64,000 nucleotides of DNA. Source: Embleya scabrispora. GTDB taxonomy: Bacteria; Actinomycetota; Actinomycetes; Streptomycetales; Streptomycetaceae. The translations under genes and the position numbers were made by a program. The stretch lies in contig NZ_MWQN01000001.1 of assembly GCF_002024165.1 (NCBI RefSeq), forward strand, positions 1,674,001-1,738,000, read 5' to 3'. Below the pieces are notes generated by a model. The model was not told the DNA's origin and made no database searches. It worked only from the letters and a program-made list of their open reading frames with translations. Positions 46,644 through 58,335 of this stretch are shown here, piece by piece; the first letter of the stretch is position 1; each line of letters starts with the position of its first letter.

Positions 46644-47282
46644 ATGAGCACCATCGACCCCGCCGTGCGGGCCGCGTTCGAGGCCGCCACCGGATTCATG
46701 CCGGTCGACGAGGGCGACGCGCTGTACGCCGCGGCGGTCCAGGCGGCCCGGGTCGGCCCACTGGTCGAACTGGGCACGTACTGCGGCCGCTCGACGATCC
46801 TGCTCGCCGCGGCCGCGCGCGACGCCGGCACCGTGGTGGTCACCCTCGACCACCACCGCGGCTCCGAGGAGCAGCAGCCCGGCTGGGAGTACCACGACCC
46901 GAATCTGGTCGACGCCGAGTTGGGCGTGATGGACACCCTGCCGACGTTCCGCCGCACGCTGTATCGCAGCGGACTCGAACCGTATGTGGTGGCCCTGGTA
47001 GGCCACAGCCGGACCATCGCCCCGCTGTGGAACACCCCGGTGGGCATGGTCTTCATCGACGGCGGCCACACCGACGAGCACGCACAGGGCGACTACGAGG
47101 GCTGGGCCCCACACGTCGCACTCGGCGGACTGCTACTCATCCACGACGTGTTCCCCAACCCGGCCGACGGCGGCCAGGCCCCACACCGCATCCACCAACG
47201 CGCACTCGCCTCCGGCGCGTTCAAGGAACTCCCGGCCCAAGGCTCCCTACGAATCCTCCGCCGCGCAGCAAACGGAATCTAA
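46644..47282 (+). CDS. Class I SAM-dependent methyltransferase
   Basis: This 212-residue Methyltransf_24-type protein has GPLVELGTYCGRSTILLAAAA (SAM motif I), VVTLDHHRGSEEQQPGW, and VGMVFIDGGHTDEHAQ, the pattern of small O-methyltransferase-like proteins. The acceptor is unknown. ATG follows AGGAGATCCCGAC. It diverges from the fused dehydrogenase and might also respond to the box at 46496, but that is 135 bp away. Confidence 0.88.
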   Translation: MSTIDPAVRAAFEAATGFMPVDEGDALYAAAVQAARVGPLVELGTYCGRSTILLAAAARDAGTVVVTLDHHRGSEEQQPGWEYHDPNLVDAELGVMDTLPTFRRTLYRSGLEPYVVALVGHSRTIAPLWNTPVGMVFIDGGHTDEHAQGDYEGWAPHVALGGLLLIHDVFPNPADGGQAPHRIHQRALASGAFKELPAQGSLRILRRAANGI

Positions 47283-47340
47283 CCAACCACCCCAAACAGC
47301 CCACCCCACCCAAAAAGCATCACCCCCGCCCACCCCCGAG

Positions 47341-47576
47341 GCGCGTCAGCGCCCACGACCCAGGCCACCCACGCGATCGACGCGCGAAGCGCGGAGAGCG
47401 GCGGAGCCGCCGCTTGTTTTTTCAGGCTGGGCGACCCGGAGCGAAGCGGAGGGGCGCACAGCCGCGAGCGGGGTGCCGCTTTTCTGCGGAGGAGCGAAGC
47501 GGGGGAGCAGAAAAGCGGTGCCTCGCGAGCCGGCGCGAAGCGCCCAACAAAAAGCCGCCGCCGCCACCACGACATC
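47341..47576 (+). repeat. Hairpin-rich ~235-bp intergenic element, copy 1
   Basis: The element runs from GCGCGTCAGCGCCCACGACC to AACAAAAAGCCGCCGCC. It holds four copies of GCGAAGC (47384, 47441, 47494, 47535), a heptamer known to form an unusually stable DNA mini-hairpin. A perfect 12-bp stem pairs CCGCTTTTCTGC (47476-47487) with 47507-47518. Near-identical copies lie at 57755-57990 (reversed) and 58107-58335. Open frames cross it on both strands, but conservation follows the stems, so I treat it as non-coding. Confidence 0.9.
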
Positions 47577-47584
47577 GCCCGCCC

Positions 47585-47870
47585 ACCTCGTCCGGCCCGC
47601 GACATCGCCCGCCCTGCCGGGTTCGGGTCGCGGCTTGGGCTGCCTGTCCGGTTCAGGTCGCGATGTCGCTACCCCTGCCCGGTTCGGCTCGCGACATCAT
47701 CACCCCTGCCGGGTTCGGGTCGCGGCTTGGGCTGCCTGTCCGGTTCGGCCCGCGATGCCGTCTACCCACCCGGTTCGGCCCGCGACGTCGCCCGCCCGTC
47801 CCGTTCGGGTCGTGGCTCGGGTTGCCTGCCCCGCTCGGATCGCGACTTCGCTCGCCCCCATTCACCCCAC
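47585..47870. repeat. Degenerate tandem repeat, including a 92-bp duplication
   Basis: The motif CCGGTTCGGSYCGCGAYNTC recurs every 30-45 bp. A longer block beginning CCTGCCGGGTTCGGGTCGCG is repeated after 92 bp (47617 and 47709). With the hairpin element it fills the gap 47283-48154. No gene is supported; the long frames here are repeat artefacts. Confidence 0.75.
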
Positions 47871-48154
47871 CCCATCCACCCACCCCGCGCCACGATCAGC
47901 CCGCCCCCCGCACTCGGCCCGGCCCCCCGAACCCCTCCCGGCGCCACCCCACACCCACCCCGGCACGATCCCCCGTCGCCTCCGCCTCGACCCGACGTCC
48001 CATCGGTGCGCGATCCGCGTGCCCACCACCCCGCTGCCCCATTGCCCGGCGTCAAGATCGATTCGAGCCTGATTCGATTCCCGAAAGCAATCCGATCCGG
48101 TCCCGCGCGGGTCCCGTTTACTGGGACAATGCCCATCCGGAAGGACGCGGGGGG

Positions 48155-49453
48155 ATGGTCATGTCCGATCAGCATCAGCACGACGACGGGCCCGGCGAAC
48201 CCGCGGCGGACGCCGAGCGGTTCGAGACGGTCTGGGACCGGACGGCCAATGGCGGCGTGGGCGGCTGGGTGCGCCGCCGGGTCACCGCAGGGCCGACCGC
48301 CGTGAACCCGGGCGCGCCACCGCGTCCGCATCACGAGCCCACCGCCCACCTGCCGGCCGCCACGCCGCCGGCGCGGCCCGGCACGCCGCCGCACACACCA
48401 TCCGCGTCGCCCGACGAGCAGGACACCGTCGACAACCCGGCGGCGGCCCGCGGCATGCCCGCAGGCCCGCCACCACCGGGGTGGCCGGTTTCCGCCCCGC
48501 CCCCGGTGTCCACCCCGCCCCGGGTGTCCCCCCAGCCGCCCGCCGTCACCCCGCCCTCGGTGCCCGCGCCGCCTTCGCGCCCGCCCGTGTCCCCGGATTC
48601 GTCGGCGCCGACCGCGGACTGGTACCGGCAGGACCCCGGGCACACTCCCGTCCACGGCGTGCCGCCGGCCCGCGACGTCCCGGTCGCCCCGGACTGGTAC
48701 CGCGGCGCCACCCCGCCGGCTCCCGGCCCGCTCTCGCCCACCCCGCCCGGCCCCTCGTTCGAGCGCACCCTGCTGTTCATCGTGGCCGCGGTCGTCCTGG
48801 TCGCCGCCGTCGGCACCCTGTTCGCCCTCAAGCCGTGGGCGGAGGACGACAAGAAGCCGGCCGCCCACGGCTCACCGAGCGTGGAATCCACCGCCGGCTC
48901 GCCCTCCTCCTCCGGCGACGCGGCGGGCGCCCCGCCGGGCGCCCCGTCCACCCCGCCGCCGGCCGGGCAGACCACGATCACCACCACCCCGCCACCCGCG
49001 AGCCCCACGCCGGACGGCCGCGGCCAGGCCGCCGCGTTGGACACCCTGCTCTCCCGCAGCGGTTCGTCCCGGCAGTCGGTGATCGACGCGGTGAACAACG
49101 TCGGCTCCTGCTCGTCGCCGGCCGCGTCCCGCTCCGCGCTGCTCGATGCCGCCGCGCAACGCGACCAGTTGGTCACCCAGTTGGACGCGATGCGCTTCGA
49201 CGGCGTCCCCGAACTCCAGGCCGCCGTACCGACGTTGCGCACCGCGTGGACCGCCTCCGCGCGCGCCGACCGATCGTTCGCCGCGTGGGCGCAGTCCGCG
49301 GCCGACTCGGGCTGTCCGGGCACCCGGGCGCTCTACGACGAGGGTGCCGCGATCAGTTCCGAGGCGTCCACCGCGAAGAAGTCGTTCGTGACGACCTGGA
49401 ACGCCGTCGCCTCGCGCTACGGCCTCACGTCCAGGAGTGAACTTGACCTCTGA
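48155..49453 (+). CDS. Proline-rich single-pass membrane protein, unrecognised
   Basis: The 432-residue protein has an acidic start (QHQHDDGPGEPAADAERFET), a long Pro/Ala/Thr-rich cytoplasmic part, one membrane helix at about 204-226 (LLFIVAAVVLVAAVGTLFAL), a Ser/Pro linker, and an exported helical domain of about 140 residues with two Cys (VNNVGSCSSPA, SGCPGTR). WYRQDP and WYRGA recur ahead of the helix. I do not recognise a family. GTCCC/GGGAC arms at 48111-48127 form a possible operator. It overlaps the amidase gene, so a cell-wall role is plausible. Confidence 0.78.
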   Translation: MVMSDQHQHDDGPGEPAADAERFETVWDRTANGGVGGWVRRRVTAGPTAVNPGAPPRPHHEPTAHLPAATPPARPGTPPHTPSASPDEQDTVDNPAAARGMPAGPPPPGWPVSAPPPVSTPPRVSPQPPAVTPPSVPAPPSRPPVSPDSSAPTADWYRQDPGHTPVHGVPPARDVPVAPDWYRGATPPAPGPLSPTPPGPSFERTLLFIVAAVVLVAAVGTLFALKPWAEDDKKPAAHGSPSVESTAGSPSSSGDAAGAPPGAPSTPPPAGQTTITTTPPPASPTPDGRGQAAALDTLLSRSGSSRQSVIDAVNNVGSCSSPAASRSALLDAAAQRDQLVTQLDAMRFDGVPELQAAVPTLRTAWTASARADRSFAAWAQSAADSGCPGTRALYDEGAAISSEASTAKKSFVTTWNAVASRYGLTSRSELDL

Positions 49454-57754: not shown

Positions 57755-57990
57755 CGATGTCGTGGTCGCGGCGGCGGCTTTTTGTTGGGCGCTTCGCGCC
57801 GGCTCGCGGGGCACCGCTTTTCTGCTCCCCCGCTTCGCTCCTCCGCAGAAAAGCGGCACCCCGCTCGCGGCTGTGCGCCCCTCCGCTTCGCTCCGGGTCG
57901 CCCAGCCCAAAAAACAAGCGGCGGCTCCGCCGCTCTCCGCGCTTCGCGCGTCGATCACCACCTCGACCAGGGTCGTGGGCGCTGACGCGC
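57755..57990 (-). repeat. Hairpin-rich ~235-bp intergenic element, copy 2 (reversed)
   Basis: This is the near-exact reverse complement of the element at 47341-47576, including the 12-bp stem CCGCTTTTCTGC/GCAGAAAAGCGG and the GCGAAGC heptamers, read as GCTTCGC on this strand. It faces copy 3 at 58107 across 116 bp of unrelated sequence. Confidence 0.9.
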
Positions 57991-58106
57991 CGACGGGATG
58001 CACCAACGACTCGGCTCACCGGGCAAGGCCCGTGTCGCGACAGTGGCCGCCTCGGGAGTGGCCCGCGTCGTGTCGCGAGCCTGGCCTCCCGCCCCTCACC
58101 CCCGTG

Positions 58107-58335
58107 GCGCGTCAGCGCCCACGACCCTGGCCGCCCACGCGATCGACGCGCGAAGCGCGGAGAGCGGCGGAGCCGCTGAGTTTGGGTCGGATGGCCCGGA
58201 GCGAAGCGGAGGGACAGCCGGCCCCGAGCGAGGGGCCGCTTTTTCTCGGAGGAGCGAAGCGGGGGAGAGAAAAAGTGGTCCCTCGCGAGCCGGCGCGAAG
58301 CGCCCAACAAAAAGCCGCCGCCACCACCACGACCC
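58107..58335 (+). repeat. Hairpin-rich ~235-bp intergenic element, copy 3
   Basis: It has the same ends and order as copy 1 (GCGCGTCAGCGCCCACGACC to GCCCAACAAAAAGCCGCCGCC). The central stem differs on both arms, CCGCTTTTTCTC with GAGAAAAAGTGG, and still pairs, with one G-T wobble. With copy 2 it makes an inverted pair spanning 57755-58335. No gene is supported in 57378-58669. Confidence 0.9.

Follow-up and report, generated by a model that had tools for sequence, protein, structure and literature searches.

A six-hairpin intergenic repeat of the genus Embleya

Introduction

ERIC, BOX and bcr1 are structured, intergenic bacterial repeats of 100-250 bp with a narrow host range. RAYT transposases are often invoked for dispersed structured repeats in bacteria, and mobilise the REPIN/BIME repeats of Pseudomonas SBW25 and E. 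coli. Dispersed, extragenic and hairpin-forming, REPIN/BIME repeats occur as inverted doublets with a short spacer, as singlets and as tandem clusters (PMC3116915). Hairpins are also packed closely at streptomycete telomeres, where loops of the GAA, GGA and GTA type lie on one strand; among the six telomere classes described, these loops are the most frequent (PMC8743542). Sheared G:A loops of this sort are resistant to single-strand nucleases (PMC4513846).

The repeat described here was recognised in a 64,000-nucleotide stretch of Embleya DNA (the window). It resembles REPIN/BIME repeats in being extragenic and palindromic, and in having many dispersed copies arranged as doublets, singlets and clusters. 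It differs in its unit, which is ~210 nt long with six hairpins rather than a short REP, and in its sites, which are largely fixed and have their residents overwritten. Where a REP carries a conserved tetranucleotide at the foot of the hairpin, this element has a C-rich bias before its first hairpin, HP1, and no Y1/RAYT gene is found in the four Embleya genomes searched. Our best reading is of an element that works like a giant REPIN/BIME yet comes without a RAYT. By description it is like ERIC, BOX and bcr1 in size, intergenic place, structure and limited hosts, and unlike them in having six separate hairpins, of which five carry GNA loops, and in its bias towards one chromosome. With the MITEs of IS elements it shares a non-autonomous, non-coding and dispersed character, but neither long terminal inverted repeats nor target duplications are recognised. 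Packed hairpins and loop type recall streptomycete telomeres, although the element is internal, has dozens of copies and differs in sequence, and any link with terminal proteins would be hypothetical. Here a large structured repeat is uniform within species at old sites without a RAYT.

Extent and architecture of the element

An earlier note, made from the letters of the window, had outlined a mobile or structured element of ~235 bp with sharp shared ends. Alignments of copies bear out the ends: conservation is full from GGCGCGTCAGCGCC on the left, with only a C-rich bias upstream, and the right edge is sharp at GCGCCCAACAA, beyond which lies a tail common to many, though not all, copies. The extent is better delimited as a 205-nt core (47340-47544, running from GGCGCGTCAGCGCC to GGCGCGAAGCGCC), then CAACAA (to 47550), then a variable tail to about 47573 (Table 1). 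Core length varies from 199 to 205 nt among copies, with indels that do not come in threes. Overlapping frames match no Pfam family, and the element encodes no recognisable protein; a conserved protein was the finding that the note had named as contrary to its reading. The four GCGAAGC heptamers that it reported are present, starting at 47384, 47441, 47494 and 47535, whereas the main stem, given there as 12 bp, measures 20 bp (an inverted repeat with arms at 47468-47487 and 47507-47526). Across the window GCGAAGC occurs 29 times, where shuffled sequence gives 17.1 (sd 4.1); the three element copies, which are found as claimed, account for 12 of the 29 occurrences, and the other 17 correspond to chance level, so that the excess is due to the three copies.

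Table 1. Features of the element and its copies in the window
Feature	Positions	Strand	Remarks
Element core (six hairpins) and terminal CAACAA	47340-47550	+	Sharp edges on both sides in copy alignments
HP1, GGCGC-GTCA-GCGCC, left terminal hairpin	47340-47353	+	Near-invariant, 65 copies
HP2, CGCGC-GAA-GCGCG	47381-47393	+	Loop GCA in 21 of 65 copies
Terminator-like HP3 and T run	47396-47421	+	Subfamily A only
HP3, GCGGC-GGA-GCCGC	47398-47410	+	In subfamily A, but in no other, a T run follows
HP4, covarying stem, invariant apex CCC-GGA-GC-GAA-GC-GGA-GGG	47425-47463	+	Double changes at 6 pairs
HP5, 20-bp covarying stem, purine-rich apex around GC-GAA-GC	47468-47526	+	Double changes at 8 pairs
HP6, GGCGC-GAA-GCGCC, right terminal hairpin	47532-47544	+	GAA kept, stem rewritten in other species
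Variable tail	47551-47573	+	Many but not all copies, from alignment of copies
Degenerate ~30-bp minisatellite adjoining tail	47570-47828		Missing at the E. scabrispora empty site
Copy 2 (subfamily A), left half of the inverted pair	57788-57991	-	
114-bp spacer of inverted pair	57992-58105		Conserved in inverted pairs and two half-pairs of NF3
Copy 3 (subfamily B), right half of the inverted pair	58106-58304	+	

In many copies a minisatellite with CACGACTCCGGCCC-like units begins directly 3' of the tail; the minisatellite is also seen to the right of most copies. Fragments of the 3' or 5' end of the element stand in tandem with flanking bases at three places (right flank of L105, left flank of L130, and G001:C30:24629-24930), an arrangement that suggests slippage at hairpins. 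One E. scabrispora copy (L050:5901-6063) has its HP5 apex inverted (GCTCCTCCGCTTCGCTCCTCCGC); this is a hairpin-loop inversion, of the kind made by template switching.

Folding of the + strand

Selection acts on the + strand of the element to keep it foldable into six closely packed hairpins. In a set of 26 diverse copies (A2), 97.5% of the cells in the named structure pair, and sliding the partner by 1-3 columns reduces this to about 50% or less. Compensatory double changes occur at 15 base pairs in the same set, and compensatory cells number 94 against a shuffled mean of 32, with none of 500 shuffles reaching the observed value. The HP4 stems are fully different between subfamilies (for example, GGCTG/CAGCC, GGACGGTGTG/CACACCGTCC and GGACTTCGTG/CACGAAGTCC), and HP6 carries the stem variants GGCGC/GCGCC, GGCGCC/GGCGCC, GGCGAC/GTCGCC and GGCGGC/GCCGCC around a constant GAA. 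When HP4 and HP5 are parsed row by row, their mismatches comprise 123 G·T and 2 A·C, and therefore the + strand is the one that must pair.

The loops are constrained as well. Five of the six hairpins, HP2 to HP6, have the triloops GAA, GCA or GGA, that is, GNA, which makes up about 4.7% per strand among background triloop hairpins with 5-bp stems; because the hairpins may share ancestry, their GNA loops may not be fully independent. The apices of HP4 (GGA-GC-GAA-GC-GGA) and HP5 (GGAGGA-GC-GAA-GC-GGGGGA) are nearly invariant while their stems vary. Covariation, wobble asymmetry and GNA loops together strongly support the structured character proposed at the outset. Folding energy alone is only mildly remarkable, with z values of -3.0 for the + strand as DNA, -2.4 for the - strand and -2.6 for the + strand as RNA. 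The G·T pairs suit RNA and the GNA loops belong to the streptomycete telomere class, so the two kinds of molecule are not distinguished; because of the loops, we lean slightly towards single-stranded DNA as the folded form.

Host range and distribution between replicons

Four Embleya genomes were searched: the genome that holds the window (probably E. scabrispora NF3, and called NF3 here), E. scabrispora DSM 41855 (E. scabrispora below), E. hyalina and G003. A covariance model finds the element in all four, and it is also present in Embleya NBC_00888; outside Embleya the same model, scoring only seven candidates in each genome, gives no hit in 391 genomes that represent 16 further genera of the family. 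Named records with the search pattern are Embleya scabrispora and E. hyalina, apart from three hits of the 20-mer pattern, in a Kiritimatiellae MAG, an Acidobacteria MAG and Variovorax, which have neither HP1 nor HP6 and have the appearance of chance matches. BLAST also gives weak matches in three further genera of the family, which the covariance model does not recover. A search of phages gives no match to the element, and the sole match in a plasmid collection is one copy on the 5.7-Mb replicon of Embleya NBC_00888.

Copy counts rest on pattern and BLAST searches. A 27-base pattern allowing up to 3 mismatches finds 56 copies in NF3, and the reversed control pattern finds none; a simple local duplication, the other contrary finding named by the note, does not account for this genome-wide count. 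The copies occupy 34 intergenic places spread over 7 Mb, 30 on contig C1 and 4 on C2/C3. Among the matches listed, two copies face each other in inverted orientation ~115-150 bp apart at 13 places on C1; these 13 doublets have a conserved spacer and stand alongside many single copies, and at 4445-4447 kb of C1 copies are arrayed in tandem with a double period of 635 bp. No inverted pairs were seen in the E. hyalina loci that were read, nor was the 114-bp spacer found in element loci of other species.

The NF3 assembly has 8 contigs, of which C1 measures 7.005 Mb, C2 1,247,984 bases and C3 1,125,638 bases. The published description likewise gives 8 contigs, one of >7 Mb as the likely chromosome, and finds that the 1,248-kb and 1,126-kb contigs resemble the secondary chromosome EEC1 (PMC13152386); on the strength of that description C1 is taken as the primary chromosome. 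It carries 52 of the 56 copies against ~36 expected, a bias with p = 6e-7 by copies and 0.0015 by places when all non-C1 contigs are treated as secondary. In NBC_00888 the secondary replicon, of 5.73 Mb, shows one copy. The secondary chromosome of Embleya has been put forward as the largest of any bacterium (PMC13152386). Single copies show no switch in orientation along C1 that would mark leading/lagging polarity, in a comparison made without a placed oriC. Concentration of the repeat on one chromosome makes exchange between the two replicons of Embleya testable.

Old sites and young copies

Most sites are ancestral to Embleya, and some are polymorphic between species. E. hyalina was read at 11 distinct sites; at nine of them NF3 also carries the element (in one case on the evidence of a single flank), and identity between the flanks is mostly 90-97%. 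Orthologous copies at these shared sites are 76-92% identical, against 94-99% between NF3 copies and their NF3 paralogues (the pair L111/L052, not truly orthologous, was left out of the comparison). In a phylogenetic tree, the 23 NF3 copies that make up subfamily A form a clade that contains no other species (support 98). This clade includes the window site at 47340 and the 4133-kb, 6738-kb and 3870-kb sites, whose E. hyalina or E. scabrispora occupants fall elsewhere in the tree. At 6440 kb an inverted pair in NF3 corresponds to a single copy in E. hyalina, and most inverted pairs have one arm of subfamily A and the other of subfamily B. The lower identity of orthologues than of paralogues at old sites therefore shows that new subfamilies replace the copies already in place and sometimes add one in inverted orientation, although the same pattern could instead reflect repeated independent insertion into hot spots. 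Four-gamete configurations at 702 of 990 site pairs, a count inflated by paired sites and recurrent change, fit recombination between copies.

Three empty sites were compared with their occupied counterparts: the window locus in E. scabrispora, where the minisatellite is missing too, the 5475-kb locus in both E. scabrispora and G003, and the 3603-kb locus in E. hyalina. No target-site duplication, for which the earlier note had advised a search, is recognisable in these comparisons because the flanking spacers differ throughout. The empty sites indicate past insertion, with intergenic sequences too diverged to prove that it was clean. The mobility that the note had suggested is thus supported for past events alone, given the 7-Mb dispersal and the empty sites in sister species; most sites are ancestral. 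Near the empty sites at the orthologous 5475-kb locus (L149, L150), GCCCGTCCGGCGTTTGAGGAC-like hairpins, a different repeat, occupy the same gap between convergent genes.

Mechanism and alternative explanations

The note had proposed a RAYT-type transposase. Y1_Tnp (PF01797), which is detected in 5 of 14 control genomes, has no match in any of the four from Embleya. RVT_1 (PF00078) has matches only in E. scabrispora and E. hyalina, with none in NF3 or G003, and the loci fetched around those matches do not contain the element; NF3 nevertheless has its own recent subfamily. To the account that we prefer we assign about an even chance: the element would be a genus-specific, non-coding, non-autonomous and structure-dependent repeat whose copies are replaced at old sites and whose fold is needed for copying. 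The folded + strand itself would be required, since paired changes in the stems separate the subfamilies at species level. Replacement would proceed by homologous recombination (gene conversion) from a donor to a resident copy. A new subfamily can add a second, inverted copy with a fixed spacer, and such overwriting keeps the copies of each species alike. First-time insertion would have needed an enzyme, presumably neither Y1/RAYT nor, in NF3, a PF00078 reverse transcriptase. A freely mobile element would hardly be expected to place 52 of its 56 copies on the primary chromosome, and this counts against the preferred account, as do the failure to find a mobilising enzyme and the lack of a recognised target-site duplication.

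The copies could be MITEs of an ordinary DNA transposon, its autonomous form having been lost or having escaped recognition. That origin would fit dispersed, non-coding copies with sharp ends and polymorphic sites, yet it is unlikely: the ends are two different hairpins whose inverted-repeat match is limited to the GGCGC/GCGCC stems, and no target duplication is recognisable. A SINE-like retro-element, in which a reverse transcriptase acting in trans copies a folded RNA, would explain the precise left end, the A-rich right end (CAACAAAAA) and the variable 3' tails. It is already weakened, and very improbable, as NF3 has a recent subfamily of its own and no RVT_1 match. A more credible alternative, though well below an even chance, is a multi-copy structured RNA: transcription starting in neighbouring genes or at a promoter of the element would turn the + strand into a small RNA, a terminator or part of a UTR, and gene conversion would homogenise copies needed by the host. 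The frequent G·T pairs (G·U in RNA), which are the majority state at one HP5 position, and the mostly old sites common to the species agree with this, as do one copy directly between the stop codons of convergent genes and another ending just 5' of AGGAG-ATG. HP3 and its T run form a good intrinsic terminator in subfamily A, but other subfamilies lack the T run, and termination was rejected as a general function. Rfam returns only a chance-level mir-4773 match far below the gathering score, no promoter-like match occurs in 47200-48200 (with a consensus that fits actinobacteria poorly), the orientation of flanking genes is mixed as judged by a rough home-made gene caller, and sites are polymorphic between species without obvious consequence.

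The loop rule brings telomeres into consideration. The 5.73-Mb linear replicon of NBC_00888 (NZ_CP108785.1) ends in identical repeats (L154:1-300 and the last 300 bases of L155), and on the 3' strand these ends form three perfect hairpins with GTA, GGA and GTA loops. The element might descend from, or bind the same proteins as, such hairpin-packed 3' ends of Embleya linear replicons, since both combine tight packing with the GNA rule. We regard this as improbable: by inspection the replicon ends have no sequence similarity to the element, their hairpins lack GCGAAGC, every copy that was mapped lies internally, the element is missing from those contig and replicon ends that were read, and the loop rule may simply mark stable DNA hairpins in general. 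A further reading, that the element is a telomere-like family folding as single-stranded DNA, marks the primary chromosome of a two-chromosome actinobacterium and is actively homogenised by copy replacement without a classical transposase, would give it a chromosome-specific role in replication, recombination or organisation. This reading is speculative and doubtful, and any chromosome role is something that we infer.

Consequences for genome assembly

The repeats coincide with many contig ends in Embleya draft assemblies. Draft contigs of E. scabrispora DSM 41855 (L038-L072) often end inside the element, which therefore breaks short-read assemblies.
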